Positions 3,780 through 52,368 of a DNA stretch of 53,179 nucleotides are shown in pieces. Below the pieces are notes generated by a model. The model was not told the origin of the DNA. It saw only the letters and a program-made list of their open reading frames with translations, and did not search any database. The DNA lies in assembly GCA_903888345.1 (NCBI GenBank), contig CAISTG010000050.1:1-53179 (forward strand). The letters run 5' to 3'. The translations under genes and the position numbers were made by a program. Within the stretch, counting starts at the first letter, position 1; the number at the start of each line of letters is the position of its first letter. The stretch comes from Candidatus Buchananbacteria bacterium (GTDB lineage: Bacteria > Patescibacteriota > Patescibacteriia > 2-01-FULL-39-33).

Positions 3780-4595
3780 ATGGGAAAAATCGGTAACTAT
3801 AAAATCATTAAGCGAATTGGTGAAGGTGGTTTTGCTAAAACCTATTTAGCGGAGCACCTGCTTTTAGGAGAGATGGCTTGTATCAAACAGAATTTAGTCA
3901 CCGATGTCGAAGATGCCAAACTGTTGCGGCGCGAAGCCAAGTTGTTATGGCAAATTCATCATCATTCATTGCCGACCTTACGAGATTTCTTAGATTGCGG
4001 TGATGGTAGTTATGCCTTAGTGATGACTTACATCCCCGGTAAAGACCTCTGGAAAATTGTCGAAGAAGACTACCCCGAAGGAATTGATCCGGAGCATGTT
4101 TGTTGGATGGCTCAACGGTTACTGAATGCCCTACATTATTTACACTACTATGGTGTCATTCATTACGATGTCAAACCGCAAAATATCATCATCAATGCCA
4201 AGGAGCACAATGCGATTCTAGTGGACTACGGTCTGTCTAGTGTCCGACCAAAAGCGACGACTGTTGGCTTAGGCTATACACCCGCTTTCGCAGCTCCCGA
4301 ACAAATGGCTGACTTGCCACCGATTCCGGAAACTGACGTTTTCGGTTTAGGGGCTTCGTTGATTTATGCTTTGGGCGGTGATTATTTAGCCAAGACTTTT
4401 CCGGCGCATGTGCCCCGTAAACTTAAGGAGTTTATCAGTAAAATGGTTTTACATGAACCCTTGAAACGACCGAATGATTTATCGGCATTAGTTAAAGAAT
4501 TGTCTGATTTGCGATTCGAATTATTTGGCCATCGATCTTCTGAAAAAGTTTTAACAATCGACCTCGGCAAAGACAAGCCGAAAAAAAGGAGTTAA
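3780..4595 (+). CDS. Ser/Thr protein kinase (Hanks type), soluble
   Basis: A 271-aa stand-alone eukaryotic-like kinase domain. Visible motifs are the glycine loop GEGGFAKTY (14-22), catalytic Lys36 in ACIKQ, the helix C Glu at about 52, catalytic loop HYDVKPQN (128-135), the metal-binding DYG in place of DFG (149-151), APE (172-174) and DVFGLG in subdomain IX. All catalytic residues are present; HYD replaces HRD, so it is not an RD kinase and may not need activation-loop phosphorylation. No transmembrane or sensor domain is attached. AAGGAG precedes the ATG. It lies between a phosphoesterase and a VWA protein with a Ser-rich N-terminus, a likely substrate or partner. Confidence 0.95.
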   Translation: MGKIGNYKIIKRIGEGGFAKTYLAEHLLLGEMACIKQNLVTDVEDAKLLRREAKLLWQIHHHSLPTLRDFLDCGDGSYALVMTYIPGKDLWKIVEEDYPEGIDPEHVCWMAQRLLNALHYLHYYGVIHYDVKPQNIIINAKEHNAILVDYGLSSVRPKATTVGLGYTPAFAAPEQMADLPPIPETDVFGLGASLIYALGGDYLAKTFPAHVPRKLKEFISKMVLHEPLKRPNDLSALVKELSDLRFELFGHRSSEKVLTIDLGKDKPKKRS

Positions 4596-4599
4596 TGCT

Positions 4600-5628
4600 A
4601 TGGGTTACGGATGGGGTGATGACAGCAGTAGTCCTTCGACTAGTTCCACGGGCGGGCACAGCCATGAAGAGGCTCGCAAAGCTTATCCAAAACCAGTTTC
4701 GACCCCCAAGTCTTCGCCATCTCGCTCCAGCTCTTCAAGTTCGAGAAGCTCGGGATTTTCCAAAGCCTCGACACCGGTAGTGTCTTCAATCGATTCACGT
4801 CGGGCGCGAGCCTCTCTACCAGTCGGTAAGACAGTCAAGTCTAACAGCACCCACCCCTTAGTGATTGGTTGCGACCATACCGGGTCAATGAAAAAATGGC
4901 CCAGTATCTTTATTGAAAAATCTGCCCTTTTGGGCGACGAGGTGGCGCGTATTGCTCCGGACCATGAAATCAGCTTCTTCTTAATTGGCGATGGTCTTTG
5001 CGACACCCATGCCTTCCAAGCCAGGGATTTCGCCTCCGGCCCACCACTGACTGATCACCTTAATTGCTTGTATCCTGAAGGTGGGGGTGGTGATTCTGCC
5101 GAGTCTTATGCGCTAGCCGCCTACTATTACCTCCATCATTGCGAGATTAATAACGCCGTTAAGCCCATCTTCGTCATGGTGCTCGACGACATCGATCATG
5201 GCAAACTGTATAGCCGAGAGATCAAGAAATTTACTGGTGATGATACGACGAATCTAAACAGCAATGAAATCTTCGCCGAATTGGCCAAGAAGTTCTCTGT
5301 CTATATCGTTTTGCATGGCGATCACTACAAGTCACATTGGCAAGCTATCTTTGGCGAACAGCATGTCGTGACCATGGATGAACCGCGTGATATCGTGGAA
5401 ATCATCATTGGCATTATTTCCTGCGAACTGGGAGCGGCGAAAGAATTCGAAACCCGCTCCAAGAGCCGACACAGCGATCGCCCCGATCGCATCAGCCGCG
5501 TTTCCAAAGCTTTGACTTCTGTCCGCGAAGCGGCAGCTGCCAGCGAAGGCGACGAGGCGGTTGGTAAGAGCGTCACTCGTTCTAGCACCTCCAGTCGCGG
5601 CCTCAAGAGCCGATCGCTGGATGACTAA
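4600..5628 (+). CDS. VWA-domain protein with Ser-rich N-terminus
   Basis: A 342-aa protein, 4 bp after the kinase and with AGGAG overlapping the kinase end. Residues about 1-85 are low complexity and dominated by Ser (SRSSSSSSRSS) with Pro, Lys and Arg, and are presumably disordered. A von Willebrand A domain follows: the MIDAS motif is DHTGS (92-96, DxTxS variant of DxSxS), with a GGGGDSAES loop near 162-170 and FVMVLDDID as a core strand. A basic/Ser-rich tail (SRSSTSSRG-like) closes the protein. VWA-kinase-phosphatase trios are known from the TerY-P type of stress and tellurium-resistance systems. Here the phosphatase is calcineurin-like rather than PP2C. The Ser-rich ends are candidate kinase substrates (inference). 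Confidence 0.88.
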   Translation: MGYGWGDDSSSPSTSSTGGHSHEEARKAYPKPVSTPKSSPSRSSSSSSRSSGFSKASTPVVSSIDSRRARASLPVGKTVKSNSTHPLVIGCDHTGSMKKWPSIFIEKSALLGDEVARIAPDHEISFFLIGDGLCDTHAFQARDFASGPPLTDHLNCLYPEGGGGDSAESYALAAYYYLHHCEINNAVKPIFVMVLDDIDHGKLYSREIKKFTGDDTTNLNSNEIFAELAKKFSVYIVLHGDHYKSHWQAIFGEQHVVTMDEPRDIVEIIIGIISCELGAAKEFETRSKSRHSDRPDRISRVSKALTSVREAAAASEGDEAVGKSVTRSSTSSRGLKSRSLDD

Positions 5629-10366: not shown

Positions 10367-11332
10367 ATGAAAGTCCTAGTCGTTGGCGGCGCCGGTTACA
10401 TCGGTAGTCACGTCTGTAAAGCCTTATTAAAGGCAGGTTACCAAGTTAGAATATTTGATAATCTCTCCACTGGCCTGAAAGAAAATATCTTATCTGGCGT
10501 AGAATTTATTGATGGTGATATTTTAAACCAATCACAAATTAAAGCGGCACTGACTGATTGCGAAGCCGTCATTCATTTGGCTGCCTTTAAAGCCGCTGGA
10601 GAATCAATGATCTATCCGGAAAAATATTCGGTCAACAACTTAGTTGGAACAATAAATTTGCTTAACGCCATTTCCGCTAGCCCCATTAGAAAAATAATCT
10701 TTTCCAGTAGCGCCGCTGTTTATGGTGAGCCGAAATATTTGCCTATGGATGAACAACATCCAACTGAACCCGTCAGTTACTATGGTTTTACTAAACTAGA
10801 AATAGAACGCTTTTTGAGTTGGTATGATCAATTAAAAAATCTTAAATTTGCAGCCTTGCGCTATTTTAATGCCGTTGGTTACGACAGTGAAGGAGAGCTA
10901 AAGGGTCTAGAAAAAAATCCAGCTAACTTACTGCCAATCGTGATGGAAGTCGCCCAAGGCACTCGACCTTATCTAGAAATTTATGGCGATGACTATGATA
11001 CTAAGGACGGAACTTGCATTCGTGATTATGTTCATGTCGACGATTTAGCTATTGGCCACGTTAAAGCCTTGCAATATTTAATCGATAACAATGTTAGCTT
11101 AACCGTAAATTTAGGAACCGAGCAGGGATTAAGTGTTAAAGAAATTATTAATGAAGCCGAAAAGCAATTGGGGCGCCAACTGGCCACCAAAATTAGTCCG
11201 CGCCGCGCCGGCGATCCGGCCGCAGTTTATGCCAATAGCAGTAAAGCCAAAGAACTCTTAGGTTGGGAAGCTAAATTTAGCGATATTAGTAATGTCATCA
11301 AGACCACACTAAATGCTTACGGGATTAAATAA
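10367..11332 (+). CDS. galE: UDP-glucose 4-epimerase
   Basis: A 321-aa extended short-chain dehydrogenase/reductase. NAD-binding GGAGYIG at 7-13, DNLSTG at 31-36 (a typical GalE segment), SSSAAVYG (113-120) and the catalytic Y139-x3-K143 (SYYGFTK) are all present. RYFNAVG and GTCIRDYVHVDDLA are further GalE landmarks. It interconverts UDP-glucose and UDP-galactose and supplies precursors for surface glycans in the cytosol. Related epimerases acting on GlcNAc or uronic acids cannot be excluded. It is monocistronic with its own promoter and a strong terminator, and has no SD. The many Ser/Thr/Asn residues of the giant surface protein could be glycosylation targets, a speculative link. Confidence 0.95.
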   Translation: MKVLVVGGAGYIGSHVCKALLKAGYQVRIFDNLSTGLKENILSGVEFIDGDILNQSQIKAALTDCEAVIHLAAFKAAGESMIYPEKYSVNNLVGTINLLNAISASPIRKIIFSSSAAVYGEPKYLPMDEQHPTEPVSYYGFTKLEIERFLSWYDQLKNLKFAALRYFNAVGYDSEGELKGLEKNPANLLPIVMEVAQGTRPYLEIYGDDYDTKDGTCIRDYVHVDDLAIGHVKALQYLIDNNVSLTVNLGTEQGLSVKEIINEAEKQLGRQLATKISPRRAGDPAAVYANSSKAKELLGWEAKFSDISNVIKTTLNAYGIK

Positions 11333-11350
11333 CTCTCGATATACAAAAAA

Positions 11351-11378
11351 GCAATTCAATATCCTGAATTGCTTTTTT
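11351..11378 (+). terminator. Terminator of galE
   Basis: GCAATTCA (11351-11358) pairs with TGAATTGC (11365-11372), followed by TTTTTT. A run of A upstream makes it bidirectional in form. Confidence 0.9.
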
Positions 11379-11537: not shown

Positions 11538-11565
11538 TTGACAAAATAGAAATCTGCTTTATAAT
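11538..11565 (+). promoter_or_regulatory. Promoter of the novel ncRNA
   Basis: Consensus TTGACA (11538-11543) and TATAAT (11560-11565) with a 16-bp spacer. Predicted initiation at about 11572 coincides with the first base of the RNA's outer helix. Confidence 0.85.
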
Positions 11566-11571
11566 TAAAGT

Positions 11572-11802
11572 ATAAGATGATTCGGGACCAAAATAGTCGG
11601 TAAAATCAGTGGAATAATTCTTCTTTCACCTCACCCAACTCCACCTCCTTCCTCCATTATTCCACCCTTTCCACTTCCAAACCCCTCATCATCTTACCTC
11701 GCCCTTTCTTTCTCTCTTTCTCACTTCGCTCTTTCCTTCCTTCTCTTCGTACCTTCCCCCACCGCACCTTCCCTGGAACGACCTCTGGCCGTTCCTTTTT
11801 TT
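11572..11802 (+). ncRNA. Candidate structured ncRNA with anti-SD loop and pyrimidine-rich tail
   Basis: A transcription unit of about 231 nt with a consensus promoter, an intrinsic terminator and no ORF longer than eight codons. The outer helix pairs TAAGATGAT (11573-11581) with ATCATCTTA (11688-11696), then GGG (11584-11586) with CCC (11683-11685) after a 2x2 internal loop. An asymmetric bubble (11587-11608 / 11666-11682) leads to a second perfect 10-bp helix, GTGGAATAAT (11609-11618) with ATTATTCCAC (11656-11665). The 37-nt apical loop is almost G-free and contains CACCTCCTT (11642-11650), identical to the 3' anti-SD tail of 16S rRNA. From 11697 to 11774 a nearly pure C/T single strand follows. 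It matches no RNA family I recognise. It could pair with SDs as a regulatory RNA; that role is inferred. Confidence 0.7.
11775..11802 (+). terminator. Terminator of the ncRNA
   Basis: GGAACG (11775-11780) pairs with CGTTCC (11790-11795), followed by TTTTTTT. Confidence 0.85.
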
Positions 11803-11806
11803 ATCC

Positions 11807-11840
11807 ATAAAAAAACACTCGCCGTAACGAGTGTTTTATT
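11807..11840. terminator. Bidirectional terminator between the ncRNA and the HAD gene
   Basis: AACACTCG (11814-11821) pairs with CGAGTGTT (11828-11835). A-tract on the left and T-tract on the right allow termination both ways; on the minus strand it ends the HAD/TrmB operon. The 11381-11537 stretch between galE and the ncRNA promoter holds nothing I can support. Confidence 0.8.
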
Positions 11841-11842
11841 TT

Positions 11843-12550
11843 TTATAATTTATAGATCACGTCTTTTCTTTCCACTACTATTTCCCAACCATGTTTCTTT
11901 GCCTCTCGATATAATTTACTATTCGGATTAAAACAAATCGGTCGCTCCACAGTTTTCATTAAACTGATGTCACCTTCGGAATCACCGACGCCAATTGATC
12001 CCTTAAGAGATAAATTCTCTTTTTCTAAGGCACGCTTCAAAATCTTTGATTTATCAGCAATTAAATCGGCATGCAATGTTTGACCAGTAAACTGGCCCTT
12101 TTTATCAACTTCATAAAGTCGTCCATAAACCTTATCAAAACCTAAACCTTTTACAAATAATTTTACCAAATCGCGCGGTGAATGTGAGATCGCTAATAAA
12201 TAATAATTCTTCTTTTTTAAATCTTTAACTAGGTCGCGCGTAAAACGATAAACGCGCTTGTGATGAAAGGCCAAAACTTTTTTAGCAACTCGCTGGAAGT
12301 CTTTTTCTTTAACGGTAACAATATATTTTTCATACGCTACAATAACGGCATAAATATATTTGTCATAGGAATCTTTACGATTAGCCCAGTTTTCATAGGC
12401 CTTAGCATAAATAGTTCCGGCGGCCTCGGGAAATAATCCTTCTTGGATTAAGGCTTCAGTCATTTCAATCAGTAAGCTCGAACGAAAAATTGTGCCATCA
12501 ATATCGAAGACAGCGACTTTTTGTTTTTTGGTTGAAATTTTATTTGTCAT
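11843..12550 (-). CDS. HAD-superfamily phosphatase (SerB-like, subfamily IB)
   Basis: A 235-aa HAD hydrolase. Motif I is FDIDGT with nucleophile D16 and D18. Motif II is the Ser in AISHSP. Motif III is the Lys in DKSKIL. Motif IV is GVGDSEGDISLM. The helical cap between motifs I and II fits subfamily IB (phosphoserine phosphatase-like enzymes). The exact substrate is unknown. It lies 20 bp downstream of the TrmB-like regulator on the same strand and is probably cotranscribed with it. No SD is visible before the ATG, only an AT-rich leader. Confidence 0.9.
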   Translation of the reverse strand: MTNKISTKKQKVAVFDIDGTIFRSSLLIEMTEALIQEGLFPEAAGTIYAKAYENWANRKDSYDKYIYAVIVAYEKYIVTVKEKDFQRVAKKVLAFHHKRVYRFTRDLVKDLKKKNYYLLAISHSPRDLVKLFVKGLGFDKVYGRLYEVDKKGQFTGQTLHADLIADKSKILKRALEKENLSLKGSIGVGDSEGDISLMKTVERPICFNPNSKLYREAKKHGWEIVVERKDVIYKL

Positions 12551-16424: not shown

Positions 16425-16949
16425 TTAGTAACCGGCTGCATCCAATGCCTGGCCGCCAGCAGTCGCGCCAGCAGTACCCACGGCGGTAGCAACGCCAGCA
16501 GTCCAAGCCTGACCTGCAAGCAGGTGAGTCGTGGTGGCTGCAGCATTGTTGAACACCAGCGGTCCAACAAGTCCGCCCCAGAAAGCGCCGGTAACGAGCC
16601 AATCGAGGCCAGCGTCCGTAATGACGGTATTCACACTACCATTTTCGCCACCAGCGATCTGCGGTGCTGCGGCCAACGGCTCGGCAGCGACAACAGTACG
16701 ACCGGCGGATTCAACAACGTCAAATGCCCCCTTGCGAACTGCATCCGGAATAAGCACGAGATTACTCGGCTTGCCCTTCTTGATGGTCTCGCCGACCGCA
16801 ATGAGCGGCGTGAACGGCAGGATCAAAACGCGGCCGACGGTCGTGGCAAAGCCTTTACCGATATTTTTGACATCGGCAGCTCCGGCGATCGGGGCGGCAA
16901 AGGCAAGAACCAGGGCGAGGACGAGGAGGACGGAGAAAGTCTTTTTCAT
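16425..16949 (-). CDS. Secreted Ala/Gly-rich orphan protein
   Basis: A 174-aa protein with a textbook signal peptide (MKKTFSVLLVLALVLAFAAPIAGAAD, cleavage near residue 24). The mature chain is rich in Ala, Gly, Val and Thr, with two hydrophobic stretches (GRVLILPFTPLIAVG and a C-terminal TAGVATAVGTAGATAGG region) that could insert into or lie on the membrane. No family recognised. Composition is markedly GC-rich compared with neighbours, which hints at transfer or strong codon selection for high expression. It has its own promoter, a leader of about 150 nt and an AAGGAA site. Confidence 0.75.
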   Translation of the reverse strand: MKKTFSVLLVLALVLAFAAPIAGAADVKNIGKGFATTVGRVLILPFTPLIAVGETIKKGKPSNLVLIPDAVRKGAFDVVESAGRTVVAAEPLAAAPQIAGGENGSVNTVITDAGLDWLVTGAFWGGLVGPLVFNNAAATTTHLLAGQAWTAGVATAVGTAGATAGGQALDAAGY

Positions 16950-17106
16950 GATCGAATTCCTTCTTCTTGAACGCGGTTATGGTAGCCTCAGCCGCATAGC
17001 TTTGGCTTTCTAGAAACCCTGTTCCCCAAATAGAGACAAACACCTCCTTTCTCGGGGACTTAATAACTTTAGCTGCGGTTTCTACTAAAATATACAATGT
17101 AGCGAT

Positions 17107-52339: not shown

Positions 52340-52368
52340 TTGACAAATTATCACGGCCGTGCTATAGT
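52340..52368 (+). promoter_or_regulatory. Promoter of the 52.4-kb gene pair (CCGTGC class)
   Basis: TTGACA (52340-52345), 17-bp spacer ending CCGTGC, TATAGT (52363-52368). Confidence 0.8.

Follow-up and report, generated by a model that had tools for sequence, protein, structure and literature searches.

A predicted stand-alone, G-depleted small RNA gene of no described family in a candidate phyla radiation bacterium

The locus described here belongs to a member of the candidate phyla radiation (assembly of 1.39 Mb in 66 contigs, 98.5% complete) and lies within a stretch of 53,179 nucleotides that is referred to as the window. A predicted small RNA gene sits here between two terminated genes, a galE-like gene upstream and a convergent HAD hydrolase gene downstream. 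The features of the region are the following:

10367-11332: galE-like epimerase gene (PF01370/PF16363)
11345-11378, plus strand: intrinsic terminator of the galE-like gene, a 14-pair stem followed by a T-rich tail (terminator scan)
11538-11565, plus strand: sigma-70 promoter TTGACA-N16-TATAAT, exact match at 12 of 12 positions
11573-11802, plus strand: predicted small RNA of about 230 nt
11573-11581, plus strand: 5' arm of the 9-bp closing helix, pairing perfectly with 11688-11696
11609-11618, plus strand: 5' arm of the 10-bp inner hairpin, pairing perfectly with 11656-11665
11619-11655, plus strand: 37-nt G-free loop, predicted to be wholly unpaired (mean unpaired probability 1.00)
11642-11650, plus strand: CACCTCCTT within the loop, identical to nine nucleotides of the organism's own 16S 3' tail (anti-Shine-Dalgarno sequence, anti-SD)
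11656-11665, plus strand: 3' arm of the inner hairpin (fold, shuffle test)
11688-11696, plus strand: 3' arm of the closing helix (fold, shuffle test)
11697-11774, plus strand: 78-nt pyrimidine-rich tail, predicted to be single-stranded (mean unpaired probability 0.99)
11776-11802, plus strand: intrinsic terminator of the RNA, GGAACG...CCGTTCC followed by seven T (sequence, fold)
11812-11837, no strand assigned: second terminator hairpin, a 10-pair stem with T-rich sequence on both sides (terminator scan, sequence)
11843-12550, minus strand: HAD hydrolase gene, convergent to the RNA gene

The terminator at 11345-11378 separates the galE-like gene from the RNA gene, and the hairpin at 11812-11837 can serve the convergent HAD gene as well as back up the RNA's own terminator. 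Among named organisms, the HAD protein has its nearest relatives in Candidatus Staskawiczbacteria and Kaiserbacteria, which makes it most likely that the bacterium belongs to the Patescibacteria.

The promoter is composed of the -35 element TTGACA (11538-11543) and the -10 element TATAAT (11560-11565) separated by a spacer of 16 bp, and the transcription unit ends with the terminator at 11802, both exactly as stated in the first-pass annotation of this DNA. That annotation placed the transcription start at the very first base of the closing helix, and the spacing of 8 nt between the -10 box and this base agrees with it; however, 11572, 11573 and 11574 each lie 7-9 nt from the box, and the start is inferred as 11572-11574. 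No open reading frame of at least 40 amino acids covers the locus on either strand, again in line with the earlier claim. Perfect promoters of the TTGACA-N16-TATAAT type occur at 13 sites in the sampled 234 kb of the genome, one of them preceding the RNase P RNA (Rfam RF00010; the model match begins 10 nt downstream of the -10 box) and another preceding a tRNA. Since perfect promoters also drive these two kinds of RNA here, strong expression of the predicted RNA is plausible. The agreement of promoter, helices and terminator, the lack of an open reading frame and the stability of the fold (z = -3.6) make it well supported, judged from the sequence, that the locus is a stand-alone RNA gene, and no Rfam match assigns it to a described family, as the first reading had already proposed. 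An own promoter combined with an intrinsic terminator is moreover characteristic of the class of C/U-rich small RNAs binding to Shine-Dalgarno (SD) sequences. As a separate observation, strong promoters at position 52340 of the window and at L125 12897, L129 145 and L123 17934 are followed, some 10-50 nt downstream, by leaders sharing AACCTTGAAAA/AACTTTAAAAA-like words, which may represent a common leader element.

The predicted fold comprises a domain of 124 nt, which is closed by the perfect 9-bp helix, extended by a GGG/CCC pairing (11584-11586/11683-11685), and which holds the perfect 10-bp hairpin with its 37-nt loop. Both helices had been described before and are beyond chance expectation: two Watson-Crick stems of at least 9 bp were formed by none of 2000 dinucleotide shuffles of the domain, and at least one such stem by 1.7%. 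The full fold has a minimum free energy of -34 kcal/mol (z = -3.6), and none of 200 shuffles was as stable; a competing 7-bp stem, AGTGGAA/TTCCACT, is present in the RNA. Next to the helices, the composition sets the RNA apart. No G occurs between 11613 and 11700, a stretch of ~85 nt, and the excess of C over G in a sliding frame of 150 nt peaks at 69 compared to a mean of 2.9 and a standard deviation of 9.1 across the window, i.e., it lies ~7 standard deviations above the mean. The loop at 11619-11655 is devoid of G and carries CACCTCCTT at 11642-11650, and the approximately 78 nt of nearly pure pyrimidine reported for the tail are indeed found at 11697-11774. This tract is the only one of 48 pyrimidines with three interruptions or fewer in the 1.39-Mb assembly; the pyrimidine-tract search returned mostly the antisense of Lys/Glu-rich coding sequence.

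The first-pass annotation further stated that the RNA displays a copy of the 16S anti-SD sequence. The 3' end of the genome's own 16S rRNA, GGATCACCTCCTTTCT, was reached by a search for CACCTCCTT near the edge of a contig (contig C46 of the assembly G000, stretch L115), and a 16S model search of the genome reported no 16S gene. This 16S 3' fragment (L115 1501-1954, contig C46 from 7436) runs off the contig edge and the assembly is broken at the rRNA gene. The identity of nine nucleotides with the organism's own anti-SD is real, all nine bases are predicted to be unpaired (P = 0.99), and a second, partial match to the 16S tail, TCACCTC, is located at 11626-11632. The RNA thus exposes C/U-rich segments that complement the SD sequence of its own genome, as read from the 16S tail, with predicted unpaired probabilities of 0.99-1.00. 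Statistically the copy is marginal. After shuffling, the same 9-mer arises in 1.7% of the loops, again in 1.7% of the whole RNAs, and in 4.1% of the pyrimidine regions, and the sharing of words between loop and 16S tail reaches P = 0.015 for 5-mers, P = 0.034 for 6-mers and P = 0.029 for 7-mers. A short anti-SD match in a C/U-rich RNA is by itself weak evidence. As shuffled loops also bind SD-bearing starts similarly, the claim of an anti-SD copy is only partly supported and adds little beyond the C/U-rich composition. On the minus strand of the window (17041-17049), AAGGAGGTG occurs ~90 nt upstream of a gene for a predicted secreted protein (16425-16949, minus strand), i.e., not at its start.

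Whether the RNA has a preference for SD-bearing starts was analysed in stretches amounting to 234 kb, ~17% of the genome. Anti-SD pairing energies of -6 kcal/mol or below were found in 22% of 140 start regions compared to 11% of gene interiors, and at -8 kcal/mol the values are 13% and 3.5%, showing that the SD-bearing genes of this genome form a real but minor set. The loop pairs with a mean energy of -12.0 kcal/mol with 31 SD-bearing starts compared to -5.0 kcal/mol with 91 SD-less starts, which agrees with the previously proposed sequestration of SD sequences; however, shuffled loops reach -11.4 kcal/mol (P = 0.19) and -4.9 kcal/mol (P = 0.21), respectively. Since shuffled loops prefer SD-bearing starts equally, composition explains the preference, and nothing points to selection for the exact anti-SD order or for particular targets. 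In addition, pairing at -10 kcal/mol or below does not favour starts, being found for 28 starts compared to 54 gene interiors out of 136 when all starts are considered. The strongest pairing is predicted for a bacterial sugar transferase (PF02397, -21.9 kcal/mol; L120 11244, minus strand) and an acyltransferase (PF01757, -21.1 kcal/mol; L132 7439, minus strand). Within the ~17% of the genome sampled, an equally good top score was obtained with 28% of the shuffles and an equally good second-best score with 1.3%, and these two putative targets, which are not significant singly, serve as leads only. Two further candidates were rejected, namely an 88% match at C28, which lies inside a gene in the same sense and thus presents no target, and a 14-nt complement in the mRNA of the neighbouring HAD gene, which by a rough estimate is at chance level. 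Among the few perfect AAGGAGGTGA SD sequences of the genome, one belongs to a small histone H1-like protein with Lys/Ala repeats (L113 around 1500; G000:C33:2811-2819). In another member of the class, a C-rich, G-poor 5' leader containing CACCTCC precedes a gene start bearing AAAGGAG (L058 301-480; G034:C2), and this leader possibly masks its own SD.

The RNA is single-copy in the genome. Blastn against 57 related genomes detected no homologue, nor did the searches of phage, plasmid and viral-contig collections or of 286 class and 380 phylum genomes, the latter two sets being scanned with a covariance model of the domain. This covariance search had been suggested with the first annotation, and its weak matches (G001, G155, G216, G245 and G508) turned out on reading to be terminators, simple repeats or coding sequence. 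The RNA is missing from the genome of the same genus (95% complete) and from the remaining family genomes, the nine other genomes of this family lack the HAD gene, and the DNA adjoining galE orthologues holds nothing similar to the RNA. Searches of Rfam at gathering and permissive thresholds gave only chance matches, mainly to terminators. A blastn match in a phage covers only the terminator on the HAD side, and viral-contig matches to the exact 17-mer and hairpin patterns are unrelated. A pattern combining promoter and G-free sequence, whose gap was too short to take in the window's own site, yielded AT-rich mRNA leaders in 381 class genomes. As the large sets were searched with strict filters and the covariance model was built from a single sequence, distant relatives may be missed, but an RNA whose sequence is well conserved across the clade would have been picked up. 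Because neither the same-genus genome nor the remaining family genomes contain it, the RNA is no regulator conserved throughout the clade. No described small RNA of Patescibacteria was found in the literature searched.

Several known systems resemble the RNA in parts. Bacterial Y RNAs have an end-helix closing a pyrimidine-rich loop. The RNA described here shares this arrangement; however, even a permissive Rfam threshold gave no match to them and no tRNA-like domain was seen. LhrC of Listeria monocytogenes is a G-poor small RNA with redundant CU-rich sites in loops and single strands that pair with the SD of its targets, and Hfq is dispensable for it (PMC4132741). The predicted RNA is likewise G-poor and has several redundant CU-rich sites that are predicted to be unpaired, whereas LhrC exists in five copies whose small loops and terminator loop carry UCCC motifs; the single-copy RNA matches LhrC neither in sequence nor by Rfam model and is not counted as a member. 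The abundant sX13 of Xanthomonas represses mRNAs carrying G-rich motifs near the start through C-rich loops in an Hfq-independent manner (PMC3771888), but it has a length of ~115 nt and three small apical loops and lacks long single-stranded regions, in contrast to the one 37-nt loop and the 78-nt tail found here. Finally, the alpha-r14/NfeR1/'cuckoo' RNAs of Rhizobiales silence mRNAs at the start region by anti-SD sequences in loops (PMC10746234, PMC7143759, PMC3927594). These RNAs have three or four hairpins with identical CCUCCUCCC in each, a word that is absent here, where a single loop contains CACCUCCUU and one hairpin carries CACCTCCTTCCTCC. Lacking an Rfam match and CCUCCUCCC loops, and having one long loop and a 78-nt pyrimidine tail, the RNA belongs to none of LhrC, sX13, alpha-r14 (NfeR1) or the other described families tested. 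By analogy, the best reading would be an Hfq-independent C/U-rich small RNA which, if it acts at all, works like one of these three.

To this interpretation, a lineage-specific, stand-alone and strongly transcribed gene for a C/U-rich trans-acting small RNA occluding SD regions by redundant contacts, we give about an even chance on the basis of the sequence features. The helices would shield the RNA and keep the 37-nt loop open, and with so little G both loop and tail would stay unpaired with no help from a chaperone. The C/U stretches exposed in this way (CACCUCCUU, UCACCUC, CCUCC and others) might then pair with purine-rich SD regions, with several redundant C/U-rich contact sites in place of one precise anti-SD seed, and ribosome loading would be blocked on the mRNAs of the SD-bearing minority. 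A G-poor RNA that is single-stranded by composition would not need a chaperone, and Hfq was not detected in the genome, which is in line with the C-rich, Hfq-independent type (PMC3771888, PMC4132741). As only a minority of the genes has a strong SD, an RNA directed at SDs would act on a defined subset of genes. If expressed, the RNA would represent a well-delimited small RNA gene in a reduced genome in which Hfq and Rho both went undetected, and its extreme G depletion a neat example of an RNA kept single-stranded through composition alone.

The alternative that holds up best, although we consider it doubtful, is a functionless young transcript, in which a promoter and a terminator surround a drifting low-complexity tract and the helices and the anti-SD match are by-products. 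This would account for the lack of a homologue even within the genus, for an anti-SD match within 2-4% of chance and for pairing no better than that of shuffles; however, the perfect promoter, two perfect helices at once (0/2000 shuffles), the fold (z = -3.6) and a G depletion that is unique over 85-160 nt would be hard to gain and to keep by drift. Less probable, and in our view unlikely, is a protein decoy, the pyrimidine tracts of which bind a single-strand binder of the cold-shock or S1 type, or Era, without pairing to mRNA. Era is a factor of the 16S 3' end and its known contact is AUCACCUCC. The ~140 nt of unstructured, nearly G-free C/U sequence and the two overlapping pieces of the 16S tail in the loop (UCACCUC and CACCUCCUU; 5-mer sharing P = 0.015) would suit such a decoy, but AUCACCUCC is not present as a whole in the RNA and the sharing with the 16S tail is marginal. 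More speculative still, and improbable, is a ribosome-tail mimic, i.e., an abundant RNA with a long open loop that copies the 16S 3' end and with a pyrimidine tail, which would titrate the minority of SD-bearing mRNAs or a 16S 3'-end factor and act as a global translational switch in this reduced bacterium.

A rut-like, C-rich and G-poor Rho-loading element or a Rho decoy is very improbable: the long C-over-G bubble is a classical mark of rut sites, but the RNA-binding domain of Rho (PF07497) was not detected in the 98.5% complete assembly, with the control search finding it in 9 named genomes, and the unit carries its own intrinsic terminator. A short coding gene, starting at the ATG at 11577 (MIRDQNSR, 8 codons) or using a stop-free frame, is similarly improbable, as the 8-codon frame starts inside the closing helix and the tract, where all three forward frames are open over much of the length because of the C/T-rich composition, contains no start codon and no open reading frame of at least 40 amino acids. 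Elsewhere, nearly half of the window (17754-41822, minus strand) is occupied by a single open reading frame of 8022 amino acids, the last 748 residues of which match only a weak carboxypeptidase regulatory-like domain while the first 607 are without a Pfam match, and which probably encodes a giant surface protein. Moreover, a eukaryote-like Ser/Thr protein kinase (PF00069) is encoded at 3780-4595 and is followed 4 bases on by a gene for a protein with a Ser-rich N-terminus (4600-5628).
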